Shown here piece after piece: positions 8,752-30,332 of a stretch of DNA of 50,569 nt. A program made the position numbers and the translations under genes. The DNA comes from Bacteroidaceae bacterium. GTDB lineage: Bacteria; Bacteroidota; Bacteroidia; Bacteroidales; Bacteroidaceae. The notes beneath the pieces are model-generated. The model was given only the letters and a program-made list of their open reading frames with translations. It was not told the origin of the DNA and made no database searches. The DNA lies in the NCBI GenBank assembly GCA_016280445.1, contig JAEEGS010000045.1, forward strand, positions 1-50,569. The letters run 5' to 3'. Every line of letters starts with the position of its first letter. The stretch's first letter is position 1.

Positions 8752-9216
8752 ATGGCAGAAGAACTAAAGATAAAGGCTGGCTCGAAGGAAGAGAAGTACC
8801 GAGAGCTGGTGCCGCAGGTGAAGGCTGTGGTGGAGGGTGAGAGTGACCTCATCGCCAATATGGCGAATGTGGCGAGCATGCTGCATGAGACATTCGGGTT
8901 CTGGTGGACAGGTTTTTACAGGGTGATGGGGGAGCTTGTTTTGGGTCCTTTCCAAGGTCCTTTGGCTTGCACGCGCATTCCGAAGGGGAAGGGTGTGTGT
9001 GGTACGGCTTGGGAACGGGGCGAGACGGTGATTGTGCCTGATGTGGATGCCTTTCCTGGACATATCGCTTGTTCGAGTCTGAGCAGGAGCGAGATTGTGG
9101 TGCCTGTGTGGAAGGAGGGGGAAGTGGTGGCTGTGCTGGACATCGACAGCAAGGAGTTGGGCACGTTCGATGAGGTGGACAAGCGGTATCTGGAAGAAGT
9201 GGTGAAAATGCTGTAA
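8752..9216 (+). CDS. msrC: Free methionine-R-sulfoxide reductase (GAF domain)
   Basis: A 154-residue single GAF domain of the YebR/fRMsr type. The three cysteines of the family are present: Cys73 in LACTRIPKGKGVCGTAW, Cys83 in the same block, and Cys107 in HIACSS. The block DVDAFPGHIACSSLSRSEIVVPV and the C-terminal VLDIDSKELGTFDEVD are diagnostic. It reduces free L-methionine-(R)-sulfoxide in the cytoplasm, a role in oxidative damage repair. It is monocistronic with its own -7 box and is followed by a palindromic array. Confidence 0.93.
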   Translation: MAEELKIKAGSKEEKYRELVPQVKAVVEGESDLIANMANVASMLHETFGFWWTGFYRVMGELVLGPFQGPLACTRIPKGKGVCGTAWERGETVIVPDVDAFPGHIACSSLSRSEIVVPVWKEGEVVAVLDIDSKELGTFDEVDKRYLEEVVKML

Positions 9217-9280
9217 CGGGCTTTGCGATGATTGGGTGTTTCCGTCACCCATCAGACGATGCTTCCGTTACCTCAACAAC

Positions 9281-9343
9281 GGTCTGAGTCACACCGCCAC
9301 CCACGGTGTGACTCAGACCGATACCCTCGGTGTGACTCACACC
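9281..9343. repeat. Palindromic array, three 15-bp units at 24-bp period
   Basis: Three near-palindromes of consensus GGTSTGASTCASACC start at 9281, 9305 and 9329. Each pair is separated by 9 bp of related sequence (GCCACCCAC, GATACCCTC). The last unit is followed by GTTTTCGGGGTA. The array lies between the convergent msrC and M56 genes. A related array is at 28461-28523. It is not a CRISPR: the spacers are too short and are themselves similar. Confidence 0.85.
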
Positions 9344-9385
9344 GTTTTCGGGGTACTGTAAGGAGGGTTTGTTACAAACACGTGT

Positions 9386-11314
9386 TTACTGAAGTCTGAA
9401 AGTGATAGGAAGAGTTTTTCTCATTCTCACAATATGGCCTCTCTGCTTGGCTGGTTCCCATTTGGGCATGAGGCGAAGTGTGCGGATGGCTTCCTCTTCG
9501 AGGGCTTTGCTCATAGCCTGCAGTTCTTCAGGAGTTTGGGTGGCTTCGGCTCCTTCCTGCTTTTGTTCTTTGGCCTTTTCTGCCTTAGCCGTTACGGTGA
9601 CGCCACCTATATCGTGGGCATCGTTGCTGATCACCTTGAAGTTGCTGCATGAGCCGTCTTTCTCAACGATGAACTTGACGATGACACGTCCCATGATGCC
9701 GTTTTCAAGGGCGATTTGGGGGTAGCGGACGTTTTGGCTGATGAACTGCATGAGGGCTGCATCGCCACCTGGGTATTTGGCTGGTTCTTCGCATACTTCG
9801 AAGACTTCATCAGGTTCTTCGTCGTTGCTTTGAAATGCTTTGGTCTTGATTTCAATCACACCGTTGGCACCCCGCGAACCCCAGATGGCTGTGGCGGCAG
9901 CGTCTTTCAGCACGGTGATGGACTCAATATCCTCGGGATTGACGTTGATTAGTTTGAAGAACTCCTCATCTTCCATTACGTTGACTTCCTTGCTGAGTTT
10001 GGAGACATCGACTTCGACGATTTTCCCATCTACTACGATGAGAGGCTCCTTGCCGTCTTTGTCAATGGAAATCTTGTACGTTGTGAAGCATATAATGCCC
10101 TTTTTGTCTTTGTAGTTGTACTTGGCTGTACCATTGGGCGTTTTGAGCAGGGAGAAAGATTCGAATGAGTTGTAATTTCTCACTTCCTCTTCGGTGGCTG
10201 GGCGGTCATCGATGAAGATGTATTCGTAGGTGCAGTTGAAGTCCTTGTCGCAGTCGGCAGGTTCCCCTTCGTGGGAGAAACCGACGATTCTGCCGTACCG
10301 GTCTCTCACAGGATGGATGGTGTAGGGATGCTGGTCTTCTTGCATTTCAGAGAGTGCTGCCGCCAGGCTTTCTTCTTGAGTTGCATTGAAGACAGGCACT
10401 TCGTTGTTCTCGAGAGTTGCTACAAAATCTTCAACGGGGTCAGTTTCAGAGGGGGTGGCGAAGGCACTGATGGTGAGTGCAGCCACAGGGATGGCGCAGA
10501 GTGCTTTGAGCATGAGCCATCGGTTGGAAGGTTTCTGGTACATCATAAAGATACGCTTTTTTAGGGAGCCGTGATTCAGGTTGTTGGTGAAAGGCTGCAG
10601 ACGGTCACCGACCACCTTCTTCACAAGCAGTTGTTGATATGATTTTGCATCGATGCCTTGGTTGATGACCGCTTGGTCAGCCTCATATTCATGCACCGCC
10701 TTGAGGTCGCGGCTGATGAACCACACGAAGGGATTGAACCACTGGAAGGTCTTCATCGCTTCGAGCAGCAGGAGGTCGTAGGTGTGACCCAGACGGATGT
10801 GCTCCTGCTCGTGGGTGAGGATGTAGGGGCGGTTGTTTTCGTAGTCCTTCACGCTCATCACAATGTAGCGGAAGATGCTGAACGGAGGTTGCTCGCCTTT
10901 CAGCAAAATGATAGTGTTGCCCTGCGAGTCGGTGTGGCGCAAGCCTCCGTGCATGAACCGAATGAGGGAAATGGCCTGTATGATTGTCAGCAGCAGCATC
11001 ACCGCCACCCCTGCGAGGTAGAGCCACGTGATGACCTGCACCCATGTGATGCGCGGGGCTTGTTCGGTCGCTCTTGCATTCACGAAGACGGGCATGCTTT
11101 CCCCTTCAATGATGGTTCCCATCTGGTAGAATTCCTCGTTGATGACCGTCGGGTTGTCTGTGGTGAAATGGCACAGCGGTGCGATGAGGGATACCACCAT
11201 GATGCTCAGCAGCATGATGCGGTTGAGGCGATGGAATGTTTCTTTGCTCAGAAGAAAAAAGAAACAACTGTATAGGAGTGCCAGCGTGATGGCTGATTTG
11301 ATGATGAATAACAT
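9386..11314 (-). CDS. BlaR1/MecR1-like M56 metallopeptidase with plug-like and TonB C-terminal domains
   Basis: A 642-residue protein. Residues 1-290 hold four likely membrane helices and the zinc protease motif HEQEH (168-172), with the helper region HEYEADQAV near 208-216. After the helix around 268-288 comes a periplasmic part. Residues 425-491 read like a SusC/TonB-receptor plug (ESITVLKDAAATAIWGSRGANGVIEI). About 510-642 is a TonB C-terminal-like domain (YPGGDAALMQFISQNVRYP). BlaR1-family sensors relieve repression by their cognate BlaI. Here that partner is encoded 52 bp upstream in the same operon. The beta-lactam-binding domain of classical BlaR1 is replaced, so the ligand is unknown. 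Confidence 0.85.
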   Translation of the reverse strand: MLFIIKSAITLALLYSCFFFLLSKETFHRLNRIMLLSIMVVSLIAPLCHFTTDNPTVINEEFYQMGTIIEGESMPVFVNARATEQAPRITWVQVITWLYLAGVAVMLLLTIIQAISLIRFMHGGLRHTDSQGNTIILLKGEQPPFSIFRYIVMSVKDYENNRPYILTHEQEHIRLGHTYDLLLLEAMKTFQWFNPFVWFISRDLKAVHEYEADQAVINQGIDAKSYQQLLVKKVVGDRLQPFTNNLNHGSLKKRIFMMYQKPSNRWLMLKALCAIPVAALTISAFATPSETDPVEDFVATLENNEVPVFNATQEESLAAALSEMQEDQHPYTIHPVRDRYGRIVGFSHEGEPADCDKDFNCTYEYIFIDDRPATEEEVRNYNSFESFSLLKTPNGTAKYNYKDKKGIICFTTYKISIDKDGKEPLIVVDGKIVEVDVSKLSKEVNVMEDEEFFKLINVNPEDIESITVLKDAAATAIWGSRGANGVIEIKTKAFQSNDEEPDEVFEVCEEPAKYPGGDAALMQFISQNVRYPQIALENGIMGRVIVKFIVEKDGSCSNFKVISNDAHDIGGVTVTAKAEKAKEQKQEGAEATQTPEELQAMSKALEEEAIRTLRLMPKWEPAKQRGHIVRMRKTLPITFRLQ

Positions 11315-27425: not shown

Positions 27426-28412
27426 ATGGTAAAGACAAATTCCCTCAAAGCATGGGTGCTCGCCGCCCGTCCCAAGACACTCACAGGCGCCATCGCGCCC
27501 GTTCTTGTGGGTGGTGCCTTTGCCTATGCCCGCATCCTCCACTACACCCCCAACTCTTCAATTCTTCAATTCTTCAATTCTTCAATTCTTCAATTCTCCA
27601 ATTCTTCCCTCCTTCTCTGTCTTCTCTTCGCCATCCTCATGCAGATTGATGCCAACCTCATCAACGACTACTTCGACTTCCGCAAAGGCACCGACCGCGA
27701 AGACCGCCTCGGACCCGAACGGGCCTGTGCCCAAGGATGGATCACGCCACGCGCCATGCAATGGGGCATCGGCATCATGACAGCGCTCTCCTGCCTCGTG
27801 GGCATTGGCATCCTGCTCATCCACATGCAGTGGGAACTCCTTCTTGTGGGCATCCTCTGCGTCCTCTTCTGCTTTCTCTACACCACACGCCTTTCCTATC
27901 TCGGATGGGGCGACCTGCTGGTGCTCATCTTCTTCGGACTTATTCCCGTCGTCTTCACCTACTACGTCATGACCGATGGCGGATGGAACATTCCCCTTGT
28001 CATAGCAGGATTCGCCATGGGTATGGCGACCGACAATCTCCTCATGGTCAACAACTACCGCGACCGCAACCAAGACCGCGTGAGTGGTAAGCGCACCATC
28101 GTTGTCCGCATGATGGAGTCGCGCATCAAGAAATACGGCGAAGAAAAAGGACGCATGGAAACCGAACAAGACGCCGCCGACATCTACCTCTGGCTAGGCG
28201 TCTTCTCCACCATTCTCGCCTTCGTAGCCCTCTTTCTTTACCCCTTCTCCAGCATCCGCTATCCGCTCATGCTCATCTACCTCATCCTCCATTTCCGCAC
28301 CTTCCGTCAACTCAAATCCCTCGACGGCAAGGCACTCAACCAGGTGCTCGGCGCCACCGCCCGCAACATCTTCCTCTTCGGCCTCCTGCTCGCCGTCAGC
28401 GTCTTCCTGTAG
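27426..28412 (+). CDS. menA: 1,4-dihydroxy-2-naphthoate polyprenyltransferase (menaquinone synthesis)
   Basis: A 328-residue UbiA-family membrane enzyme. KAWVLAARPKTLTGAIAPVLVGG is the first segment; the prenyl-diphosphate/Mg site is NDYFDFRKGTD (80-90), and the second Asp-rich site is NNYRDRNQD. About eight membrane helices follow. It attaches the polyprenyl tail to DHNA. Odd feature: residues 43-62 are encoded by seven copies of an 8-bp repeat (27551-27606), giving the peptide repeat NSSILQFF/NSSILQFS in the loop after helix 1. Since 8 is not a multiple of 3, gain or loss of one copy would frameshift the gene. Confidence 0.93.
   Translation: MVKTNSLKAWVLAARPKTLTGAIAPVLVGGAFAYARILHYTPNSSILQFFNSSILQFSNSSLLLCLLFAILMQIDANLINDYFDFRKGTDREDRLGPERACAQGWITPRAMQWGIGIMTALSCLVGIGILLIHMQWELLLVGILCVLFCFLYTTRLSYLGWGDLLVLIFFGLIPVVFTYYVMTDGGWNIPLVIAGFAMGMATDNLLMVNNYRDRNQDRVSGKRTIVVRMMESRIKKYGEEKGRMETEQDAADIYLWLGVFSTILAFVALFLYPFSSIRYPLMLIYLILHFRTFRQLKSLDGKALNQVLGATARNIFLFGLLLAVSVFL
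27551..27606 (+). repeat. Seven tandem copies of CAATTCTT inside menA
   Basis: Units are CAACTCTT, CAATTCTT x4, CAATTCTC, CAATTCTT, contiguous and in the coding frame. The same unit (as AAGAATTG) builds the inverted repeat at 6571-6681, which is intergenic. Long homopolymer-free octamer repeats like this are prone to slippage. Confidence 0.9.
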
Positions 28413-28460
28413 GATGTTATTCCATAGCCGTCTTTCCCTCTACTCCACAGCCTCTAAATC

Positions 28461-28523
28461 GGTGTGACTCACACCGGCACCCTCGGTCTGACTCACACCG
28501 ACACCCCCGGTGTGACTCACACC
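28461..28523. repeat. Palindromic array, three 15-bp units at 24-bp period
   Basis: GGTGTGACTCACACC (28461), GGTCTGACTCACACC (28485) and GGTGTGACTCACACC (28509) are separated by 9-bp spacers GGCACCCTC and GACACCCCC. The final unit is followed by GATTTTTGGGGGTA. It has the same sequence family, unit number, period and tail as the array at 9281-9343, and again lies between convergent genes (menA and ispF). Confidence 0.88.
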
Positions 28524-28591
28524 GATTTTTGGGGGTATACGTGATCCTTCTTGAGGATGTGAATATAATAATGTGTGGTGTGGCTTGTTGG

Positions 28592-29077
28592 TTAGTTGTT
28601 CTTCTGCAGCAGCACCACAGCATAGGCGCTGATGCCTTCTTCACGACCGGTGAAGCCGAGTTTTTCGGTGGTGGTGGCCTTGATGGAGATGTCGTCGGGG
28701 TCAATGCCCATCACCTCGGCAAGGGTTTGCTGCATCTGGGGAATGTGGGGATTGAGTTTGGGGCGTTCGGCACAGACGGTGCAGTCGATGTTGCCGATGG
28801 AATAGCCTTTCGTGGCTACAATCTCCAATGTTTTCTTCAGGAGAATCTTGGAGTCGATATCCTCAAACTCGTTGCCTTTCTTGGGGGGAAAATGATAGCC
28901 GATGTCGCGCATGTTGGCGGCACCGAGAATGGCATCGCAGATGGCGTGGATGAGCACATCGGCATCAGAGTGACCGAGCAGACCGAGGGTGTGGTCAATC
29001 TTAATGCCTCCGAGCCAAAGGTCACGACCCTCGACGAGTTGGTGCACATCAAAGCCAAAGCCGATTCGCATTTTCAT
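28592..29077 (-). CDS. ispF: 2-C-methyl-D-erythritol 2,4-cyclodiphosphate synthase
   Basis: A 161-residue protein. The metal site is Asp10 and His12 in MKMRIGFGFDVHQL with His44 in LLGHSDADVLIHAICDA; IGYHFPPKKG and the C-terminal IKATTTEKLGFTGREEGI are diagnostic. It makes MEcPP in the non-mevalonate isoprenoid pathway, as does dxr in the same gene run. The ATG at 29077 (or 29071) matches the family; the longer open frame from 29176 overlaps porV. It is the last gene of the run, 43 bp after porV. Confidence 0.96.
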   Translation of the reverse strand: MKMRIGFGFDVHQLVEGRDLWLGGIKIDHTLGLLGHSDADVLIHAICDAILGAANMRDIGYHFPPKKGNEFEDIDSKILLKKTLEIVATKGYSIGNIDCTVCAERPKLNPHIPQMQQTLAEVMGIDPDDISIKATTTEKLGFTGREEGISAYAVVLLQKNN

Positions 29078-29120
29078 TGTCTGTAGTGATTGTAGAATGG
29101 TTTCACTCTGTGTGGGCTGG

Positions 29121-30332
29121 TCATCTTCTGCGTTTCTTGCCCAGCAGGTCGCCGATGCCGTCCATATCGAAGGCAAGCGAGAAGCGGAGGGTTTGGTCGA
29201 GCGGGTTGCTCTGTGCGGTGGAGATGACGTAGGAGGCGTCGAGCGAAAAGACGTTCATCTTGAAGCCTGCACCGACCGTGTAGTATTGGCGATTACCCTT
29301 GTTGGGGTGCTCGTAGTGATAGCCGCCACGGAGGAAGAACTGGTTGTTGTAAGAGTATTCGAGACCGACGCTCCACTGGATTTCCTGAAACTCTTCCTTG
29401 GCTCCGTTGGGCGCGTCGTGGAAGGACTTGAAGATGCCGGAGATAGGGGAGACATTGTAGTAGCCTTCACCTTCGAGCCATGTGCGGTAGGCTCCATAGT
29501 TCTCTTTCTCCAGTTCGCGCTGGTCTGCGGGCAGGGTGGCCAGATACTGCTCCATCGTGGGTCGTGTAGGCACCAGCAGTTTGTTGGCATCAGCCGCGAT
29601 GGTCAGGGTGTTGTATTCGTCGAATGGCACAAGCAGCGATGCACCGAGACGCAGGTTGGTGGGGAGGAACTCGGAGGTGTTGCCCTCGTTGTATGAAATC
29701 TTGGAACCGATGTTGGAGATGTTGAGACCCCAGCCGAGTTGGCTCTCATGACCTCCGAGGTTGAGGTAGCCGTTGTGATAGAGGGCGATGTCGGCCGCAA
29801 AGGCTGATCCGGGGCGCATCTCGTCGTCGCCTTCGCCACGATAGGCCAAGTCGGAGTAGATGTAACGGAGTGCCACACCTGCAGAGAATGTTTCGGAGAG
29901 CATGCGCGAGTAAGCCAAATCGACAGCCATCTCGTAGGGCTTGAACGATGTGGTTTCATCCTCAGTGTACACTTCGCCCAGTGAGAAGTAGCGGAGAGAA
30001 CCGGAGAGGGCATCGTAGTCGCCCAAACGGTAGTAGCCTGTGAGATTGGCGAGGTCAATGTCGTTGACGAGTTGACGGAGCCAGGGTGTGTAGTTGAGTG
30101 ACACACCTGAGCGGCTGATGCAGAAGGGGTACTTGGCGGGGTTCCAATACTGCGAGTTCACATCGGGGTCGGTGGCGGCACCGATGTCGCCCATACCGCC
30201 TGCACGTGCATCGGGTGCGATAGCCAAAGAGGTGACGCCGTGATAGACGGGGTTCAGTTGGTTTTTCACGTCCTGTGCGCTTGCCGAAAGGGCAAGGACA
30301 AGGAGAGTGAGTATGAATAGTGTTTTCTTCAT
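29121..30332 (-). CDS. porV: Type IX secretion outer-membrane shuttle protein PorV (LptO)
   Basis: A 403-residue protein with a signal peptide (about 1-19, LSASAQ). The N-terminus of the mature protein shows the PorV signature SLAIAPDARAGGMGDIGAATDPD followed by SQYWNPAKYPF, and the remainder is a FadL-like 14-strand barrel. PorV carries T9SS cargo from the translocon to the PorU sortase. It directly follows porU (89-bp gap with two hairpins) and precedes ispF. Confidence 0.95.
   Translation of the reverse strand: MKKTLFILTLLVLALSASAQDVKNQLNPVYHGVTSLAIAPDARAGGMGDIGAATDPDVNSQYWNPAKYPFCISRSGVSLNYTPWLRQLVNDIDLANLTGYYRLGDYDALSGSLRYFSLGEVYTEDETTSFKPYEMAVDLAYSRMLSETFSAGVALRYIYSDLAYRGEGDDEMRPGSAFAADIALYHNGYLNLGGHESQLGWGLNISNIGSKISYNEGNTSEFLPTNLRLGASLLVPFDEYNTLTIAADANKLLVPTRPTMEQYLATLPADQRELEKENYGAYRTWLEGEGYYNVSPISGIFKSFHDAPNGAKEEFQEIQWSVGLEYSYNNQFFLRGGYHYEHPNKGNRQYYTVGAGFKMNVFSLDASYVISTAQSNPLDQTLRFSLAFDMDGIGDLLGKKRRR

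Follow-up and report, generated by a model that had tools for sequence, protein, structure and literature searches.

The stretch of DNA analysed here (50,569 nucleotides of a Bacteroidaceae genome, hereafter the window) carries a regular array of three short near-palindromes between a menA-like gene and ispF, and the question raised by this locus is what such an array is and what, if anything, recognises it. A first-pass annotation had described three near-palindromes at a 24 bp period, and a second array 19 kb away with equal number, period and tail; both descriptions are correct (Table 1). Exact consensus matches in the window are confined to six sites, i.e. the units of the two arrays, and with three mismatches allowed there are 11 matches vs 4.2 +/- 2.1 in shuffled sequences. 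Both arrays are situated between convergent genes (menA-like/IspF and GAF/M56-TonB_C), and each is closed by a T-run followed by a G-run (GATTTTTGGGGG and GTTTTCGGGG). A search for RNA families across the window gave no match at the gathering score. The convergent neighbour of the second array encodes a single protein that combines an M56 (BlaR1-type) peptidase domain with a plug domain and a TonB C-terminal domain.

Table 1. Parts and neighbours of the two arrays of the window (positions in the window; a point marks features that have no strand)
Feature	Position	Strand	Basis
Unit 1, GGTGTGACTCACACC, perfect palindrome about central base	28461..28475	.	sequence and consensus match
Spacer 1, GGCACCCTC	28476..28484	.	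sequence
Unit 2, GGTCTGACTCACACC, one half-site C-type	28485..28499	.	sequence and consensus match
Spacer 2, GACACCCCC	28500..28508	.	sequence
Unit 3, GGTGTGACTCACACC	28509..28523	.	sequence and consensus match
Left inner flank CTCCACAGCCTCTAAATC of array 28461	28443..28460	-	sequence; 56-flank consensus
Right inner flank GATTTTTGGGGG, T-run then G-run, of array 28461	28524..28535	+	sequence; 56-flank consensus
Second array, three units (9281-9295, 9305-9319, 9329-9343), 24 bp period	9281..9343	.	consensus match
Left inner flank CTTCCGTTACCTCAACAAC of second array	9262..9280	-	sequence; 56-flank consensus
Right inner flank GTTTTCGGGGTA of second array	9344..9355	+	sequence; 56-flank consensus
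UbiA prenyltransferase family gene (menA-like), 3' end toward array 28461	27426..28412	+	gene call, family match
YgbB/IspF family gene, convergent neighbour of array 28461	28592..29176	-	gene call, family match
GAF-domain gene, 3' end toward array 9281	8752..9216	+	gene call, family match
M56 peptidase gene (also plug and TonB_C domains), convergent neighbour of array 9281	9386..11314	-	gene call, family match	

The whole genome (G000; 3.07 Mb, 84 contigs) contains 84 exact copies of the unit GGTSTGASTCASACC, which form 28 arrays of three with units 24 bp apart. No further array is added when three mismatches per array are allowed, a reversed-pattern control gives no match in the whole genome, and none of the 28 arrays overlaps a predicted gene. 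The first-pass annotation had held the arrays to be a repeated intergenic element and not a chance occurrence, with more copies to be expected at 24 bp spacing, and the 28 arrays vs none in the controls bear this out. Within the unit, positions 4, 8 and 12 are G or C (S) and all others are fixed. On both sides of the core lies an inverted motif that reads G(A/T)TTTTGAGGYWGTGGAAG in the outward direction (28 arrays, 56 flanks), and weaker copies of it recur at a 23 bp period with conservation that fades with distance. The left inner flank CTCCACAGCCTCTAAATC in the window is an inverted copy of the genome-wide motif G(A/T)TTTTGAGG(C/T)(A/T)GTGGAAG. Two patterns reported earlier hold in the window and take another form in the genome. 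The spacer pattern GnnACCCnC fits all four window spacers, but genome-wide the 9 bp spacers, which are recurrent, run in both orientations; the T-run/G-run tail is present at both window arrays, but genome-wide G(A/T)TTTTGAGG lies on both sides, inverted. What the spacer and tail patterns describe is one side of an element that is symmetric.

The arrays do not resemble a CRISPR array, where repeats of about 25-50 bp are separated by unique spacers; here there are three units of 15 bp and recurring 9 bp spacers. With respect to the terminal inverted repeats of a MITE, the flank motif is inverted on both sides but repeats outward without defined element ends. Among the six half-sites of an array, exactly two are C-type in 90 of 123 exact class-1 arrays (i.e. 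arrays of the type seen in the window) vs 43 +/- 5 in column shuffles. A base-pairing code among half-sites was considered and rejected, as this rule does not follow complementarity. The middle unit is nearly always involved in the rule, and spacer orientation (+,-) is found 33 times vs 7 for (-,+).

Arrays of the two classes in G000 (the second is described below) are flanked by 23 bp satellites GAGGYWGTGGAAG-N10 in inverted orientation, with about eight direct copies on one side at L046:1649-1929. These satellites may be sites of a further factor. Elsewhere, arrays at L103, L161, L172 (UBA4359, SRR8387717) and L176 (G068) are bounded by repeats of the TGGTCNNTTTGTAC / GTACAAANNGACCA type.

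Among the matches listed in named genome contigs there are at least 112 loci, representing 112 distinct arrays. Of these listed arrays 102 have three units, seven have two and three have four; some of the two-unit arrays are cut by sequence ends or mutated. Spacings among them are 24 bp (216/220) or 23 bp (4/220). The earlier annotation had looked to Prevotella for relatives; the named carriers, uncultured Prevotellaceae, Bacteroidaceae and Bacteroidales MAGs, some of them titled goat reticulum or roe-deer rumen, do not establish that label. A scan of 45 genomes of the genus at up to three mismatches gave seven full carriers with 28-37 arrays each (G000 28, G010 36, G011 37, G013 32, G014 35, G035 31, G068 35), six genomes with 1-10 arrays (G031, G022, G064, G002, G003, G024) and 32 without arrays. 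Exact unit pairs are also present in G007, G020 and G033. RGIG3223 is G013 and UBA4359 is G014, so the named-MAG and genus sets are not independent. Outside the genus, in the same order, an exact unit pair was found in none of 24 genomes. A phage origin was considered and rejected, as IMG/VR contains no exact two-unit match.

Only three of 142 arrays overlap predicted genes, and these are weak open reading frames of 33-51 aa; no overlap is seen for the other 139. A coding repeat was therefore rejected although 24 bp is in frame. Where both neighbouring genes were called (n = 122), 33 arrays are in convergent, 64 in co-directional and 25 in divergent gaps. Enrichment in convergent gaps, which the first-pass annotation had raised, is borne out: 8.3-10.4 arrays would be expected there (chi-square p 2e-12 and 8e-19 with two backgrounds). 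Co-directional arrays are closer to the 3' end of the upstream gene in 56 of 62 cases, with median distances of 87 vs 238 bp.

Homologous neighbours agree across species in which side of the array, 3' or 5', they occupy (100 of 101 pairs); the pairs come from 32 cross-species neighbour groups, a few resting on weak similarity. The gap between the NAD kinase gene (NADK) and an ABC transporter gene holds an array in all seven full carriers, with variants in G033 and G062. The orthologous neighbours and the NADK array thus indicate inheritance of many positions, though some loci are not common to all: at ychF, units are found only in G000, G013, G010, G011, G033, G062 and G064 among 30 genomes. 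The menA array is absent in the sister species G013, but synteny is broken there, and since synteny differs between species the menA locus is a poor one for an empty-site comparison.

Fourteen orthologous array pairs were compared between G000 and RGIG3223, among them w1/L137 with poor flank identity and L033/L126 with a diverged core. The 12 fixed positions per unit show no change (0/504), a figure that carries a mild bias, since the RGIG3223 loci were retrieved by way of an exact unit pair and the limit for accepting an array was two mismatches. S positions are changed at 22 of 126 sites and spacer middles at 40 of 196, so that these diverge at 17-20%; spacer edges are changed at only 2 of 56. 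In the flanks, changes number 27/165 at positions 1-6, 32/351 at 7-19 and 215/1107 at 20-60. One spacer is exactly inverted between equal palindromes in the two sister species (L036:2309 vs L158:712), and the two units on either side of it are mutually reverse-complementary.

One array common to six species adjoins a gene for a protein of 117-133 aa, termed HU-A here (133 aa in G000, at G000:C49:30099-30497, outside the window). HU-A of G000 belongs to the HU-HIG family (PF18291) with 41.6 bits vs a gathering cut-off of 26.2, and PF18291 matches all 20 related proteins at E <= 0.01; it scores 36.5 bits against HU_rel (TIGR01201), below the curated cut-off of 68.6. An AlphaFold model built from the 20 related proteins (pLDDT 84.8) gives HU/IHF matches with a Foldseek probability of 1.00; against the PDB the best E-value is 5e-4, with TMt up to 0.89 and TMq about 0.5, and a viral structure library likewise gives HU-like matches. 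This model supersedes a first one (pLDDT 74), for which no fold match was obtained at E <= 0.001. In sequence searches of the PDB, the single HU-A sequence gives a weak hit (E = 0.46) and the profile an E-value of 4.6e-5. HU-A is thus predicted to have the HU/IHF fold.

The distribution of HU-A follows that of the arrays. HU-A was found in 21 of the 45 genus genomes (threshold E 1e-40, weakest accepted 5.8e-58). Arrays of class 1 or class 3 (see below) are detected by pattern in 20 of these 21 vs none of the 24 genomes without HU-A, five of which (G061, G063, G065-G067) were covered by the three-mismatch and class-3 pattern searches alone (Fisher p 6.6e-12, ancestry ignored). The exception, G062, has degenerate arrays visible by eye at HU-A, menA and NADK. 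HU-A is present in 12 of the 14 genomes with completeness >= 90% and contamination <= 5%; the two without it, G016 and G025, have no class-1 or class-3 array. In a tree of 33 of the 45 genomes, carriers of HU-A do not form one clade (seven changes, at least three forced, AU p 1e-5), which indicates that the gene and the arrays came or went together more than once. HU-A directly adjoins menA in G036 and G018 (L192, L196).

Arrays of the species' own type are found upstream of the HU-A start codon (23 loci, 21 genomes). Exceptions are G002, which has apparently lost the array, G031 with one unit, and G013, where the array is 329 bp away. Leader arrays have two or more units at 20 of the 21 loci scored, and the start of the last unit is exactly 45 nt upstream of the ATG in 14 of 21 loci and 44 nt upstream in one more. 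A TAnnTTTG box, which we take to be the Bacteroidota -7 element, precedes the leader array in 18 of 21 loci, by 11-12 nt (nine loci) or by 33-35 nt (nine loci). Near class-1 arrays at large the excess of this box is mild (within 60 bp of 10 of 126 arrays vs 88 of 2520 random positions).

Some leaders carry a different palindrome, GGTGAGASTCTCACC, designated class 3, and the class of the leader tracks the sequence of HU-A. The HU arm region has residue 85 at its base, and eight proteins carry S instead of N there. All 14 class-1 leaders are joined to N85 and all seven class-3 leaders to S85, although the class-3 proteins are perhaps one clade (AU p 0.22), so that this link may reflect a single switch. 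The eighth S85 protein is that of G002, without a leader array, and G064b has a mixed array with N85. G068 has two HU-A copies, one of each protein type, each beside its matching array. HU-A column 17 likewise separates the classes. On the basis of the leaders, dispersed class-3 arrays were predicted for eight genomes and their absence for six others. Such arrays are present in six of the eight (G003, G017, G018, G026, G036, G064) and in none of the six; of the two failures, G002 has none and the G068 matches are its own HU-A leader. Against prediction, class-3 pairs are found away from HU-A in G007 (three) and G020 (two), both with class-1 leaders, and the search gave single unplaced matches in G024 and G033. 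The ychF arrays of G033 and G064 have a 23 bp pitch and a GGAGTGA half-site, as in their own HU-A leaders.

A further array type, class 2, has the core C[CGAYRTCG]W[CGAYRTCG]G with flanks as in class 1. Eleven of the 15 loci examined have three units with a 23 bp pitch, and the class is found in 16 of the 45 genomes, 15 with HU-A plus G016 (two matches, without HU-A). A paralog of HU-A was found by profile search and is termed HU-B (PF18291, 73.1 bits in G000 vs a cut-off of 26.2). In G000 a class-2 array precedes the HU-B gene by about 200 bp, and a TACCTTTG box lies in the interval. When sought in the fetched loci, i.e. in every one of the 20 class-2 loci in the G014 listing and 31 of the 34 in the G062 listing, HU-B was found once in each genome. 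The G062 gene begins about 140 bp after a class-2 array, again with a box between. The G014 gene is about 390 bp after the array; the two short predicted open reading frames between them, and the match to locus L047 of G000, which lacks HU-B, make G014 weak support. The array beside HU-B is the genome's own class-2 subtype in each of G000, G062 and G014. HU-B differs from HU-A in that its array is situated upstream of the promoter box. HU-B thus appears to stand to class 2 as HU-A does to its own arrays, a pairing suggested by gene position. At L324:1896-2420 of G014, HU-B lies inside a locus whose counterpart in G000, L047, has a class-2 array, and the small gene pair of L047 is reduced to short open reading frames in G014.

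Classes also replace each other at common loci. Both neighbours of a class-1 array in UBA4359 flank the class-2 locus L058 of G000; likewise, the menA-ispF gap, class 1 in the window, holds a class-2 array in G017. In two further cases a class-2 locus and a class-1 array have just one neighbour in common, once on the opposite side. Judged by neighbouring genes, arrays of differing class can occupy one place.

Array anatomy, conservation, orthologous positions, co-occurrence with HU-A, cis-linkage, co-variation at residue 85 and the predicted fold all point to the same reading: the array is probably a duplex-DNA docking site for HU-A, which would be a sequence-specific HU-HIG protein (probability roughly three in four). 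Of the roles that the first-pass annotation had listed, a protein-binding array is therefore the one favoured by co-occurrence, cis-linkage and co-variation; it had not anticipated a protein partner, a second class of arrays or any co-variation. Protein and array would form a co-evolving system. One HU-A dimer would sit on each palindrome, three abreast per array at the 24 bp pitch. With the leader array placed after a promoter-like box and before the start codon, HU-A probably represses itself; occupied by HU-A, this array would block transcription of the gene. The other 27 arrays, often between convergent genes or just past gene ends, would each carry a nucleoprotein triplet. Such triplets could act as a symmetric barrier or insulator or, with equal plausibility, as an anchor shaping the chromosome; both are tentative, and the choice is a guess between options. 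Minor-groove readers cannot easily tell G.C from C.G, which would be in keeping both with the S positions of the unit and with binding of the HU type.

An alternative is that the arrays are operators of another DNA-binding protein and that HU-A and HU-B are merely among its targets. The leaders of both genes belong to larger array sets, binding of HU-A to the arrays is itself an inference and not an observation, and the array near HU-B in G014 is at a locus that lacks HU-B in G000, all as this alternative would have it. However, array class goes with the identity of a residue in the arm region of HU-A, array presence tracks HU-A across the 45 genomes, and each of two classes has an HU paralog beside one array; a third party would have to mimic all of this, which makes it unlikely.

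An RNA element, with the arrays as 3'-UTR hairpins or bidirectional intrinsic terminators and the HU-A leader as an RNA autoregulatory structure, is improbable. Together with its T-run, unit 3 of the window array has a terminator-like score, predicted folds are strong (-51 and -54 kcal/mol), and the convergent-gene enrichment and the array within the likely 5' leader of HU-A would fit as well. However, the strands are close to equivalent. In the sense strand, mismatched units are C.C and G.G in 45 cases each and spacers are 63:59, T-runs are present downstream in 41 of 61 co-directional arrays vs upstream in 40 of 61, and they occur at divergent loci too (12 and 16 of 24), so that an intrinsic terminator with an oriented T-tract is disfavoured. 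Compensatory changes are absent, since the fixed bases changed not at all, and class-2 units of the G014 type are not palindromic and are found in both orientations. Two small asymmetries go the other way: in co-directional arrays the downstream side shows a perfect outer unit with a T-run slightly more often (26/61) than the upstream side does (20/61), and the central base of the sense strand is G in 107 cases vs C in 76 (p 0.026), a mild strand bias. The symmetry of mismatched units, spacers and T-runs speaks for duplex DNA as the substrate, and the RNA 3'-end structure proposed in the first-pass annotation is disfavoured.

The least probable alternative is a REP/BIME- or MITE-like repeat multiplied by a transposase and without a role for the host, the REP-like element of the first-pass annotation: about 30 intergenic copies per genome, inverted flanks, species-specific flank satellites, class changes at common loci and a 3'-end location typical of REPs (in the accessible text of PMC3733652) speak for it, but no Y1/RAYT gene is above the cut-off in any of the seven full carriers (G000 has one sub-cut-off match), positions are orthologous across species, fixed sites are unchanged while spacers diverge, the unit number is nearly constant at three, and IMG/VR lacks an exact two-unit match. 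RAYT mobilisation was also rejected on the ground that Y1_Tnp does not track the arrays.

Taking HU-A docking as the preferred reading, the arrays would work most like matS- or parS-type sites. MatP/matS and ParB/parS each consist of a dedicated DNA-binding protein and a few tens of exact palindromic chromosomal sites. The arrays share with them a candidate dedicated protein and tens of exact palindromic sites, here from sequence alone, but differ in the HU/IHF-fold protein, the three-unit 24 bp arrays, one array at the protein's own gene, and the presence of more than one protein/array class, with specificity that would change between species. HU is a textbook sequence-independent histone-like protein, and IHF sites are single and AT-rich. 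HU-A, by contrast, is paired with exact sequence arrays as candidate specific sites. A 2017 paper reportedly proposed roles of HU-HIG proteins in chromosome partitioning. A literature search gave no recognised description of the arrays or of a cognate HU-HIG site, and found no HU-HIG targets.

According to the accessible part of PMC5683647, HU binds duplex DNA without sequence specificity, and about half of the Bacteroidetes HU/IHF sequences align poorly and were omitted from that study. A comparable HU case is PG0121 of P. gingivalis, which is co-transcribed with an operon bearing a large (77 bp) inverted repeat at its 5' end and preferred this 77-mer over a control 77-mer (accessible text of PMC3969353). 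Unlike the arrays, it concerns one locus and an HU of about 10 kDa similar to that of E. coli, and the same text mentions no dispersed triplets. REP/BIME elements, as described in the accessible portions of PMC3733652 and PMC2817692, are similarly short intergenic palindromes, mostly 3' of genes, that form composite arrays; the elements described here differ in carriers without RAYT above the cut-off, a unit count nearly fixed at three and orthologous positions. The BrickBuilt MITE of P. gingivalis is intergenic, with 19 copies and 23 nt tandem repeats (PMC4596501, in part). Its degenerate repeat (AGAYCATARTATCCTCTCRTRTG) is unlike the array units by eye and resembles in length the 23 bp flank satellites of the arrays, not their core.

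One HU-HIG protein, and probably a second, can thus be paired with exact, conserved chromosomal targets by sequence comparison only. The natural series of proteins and sites (N85 or S85, 24 or 23 bp pitch) makes specificity directly testable, and the protein/array system is a possible handle on chromosome organisation or insulation in Bacteroidota. A wider generalisation is speculative and rather doubtful, namely that HU-HIG proteins of Bacteroidota form a superfamily of sequence-specific chromosome organisers in which each paralog would use a code of its own (one operator array at the paralog's promoter and tens of three-unit docking arrays at conserved addresses), with codes swapped between paralogs and species and set by a few HU-arm residues.

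Other short palindromic or tandem arrays follow menA or NADK at L180 (G012), L187/L188 (G011/G010) and L220 (G064). These repeats are AATAAGGNNCCCTTATT, CCTAGGCATACT and, with the same GCCTC..ATCG flank, ACTGGAGCAGTCCGA; they may be additional array classes paired with additional HU paralogs. In several species without class-1 arrays (L208, L209, L210, L212, L216), the NADK - ABC transporter gap is filled by simple repeats of the TTGAGAG type.
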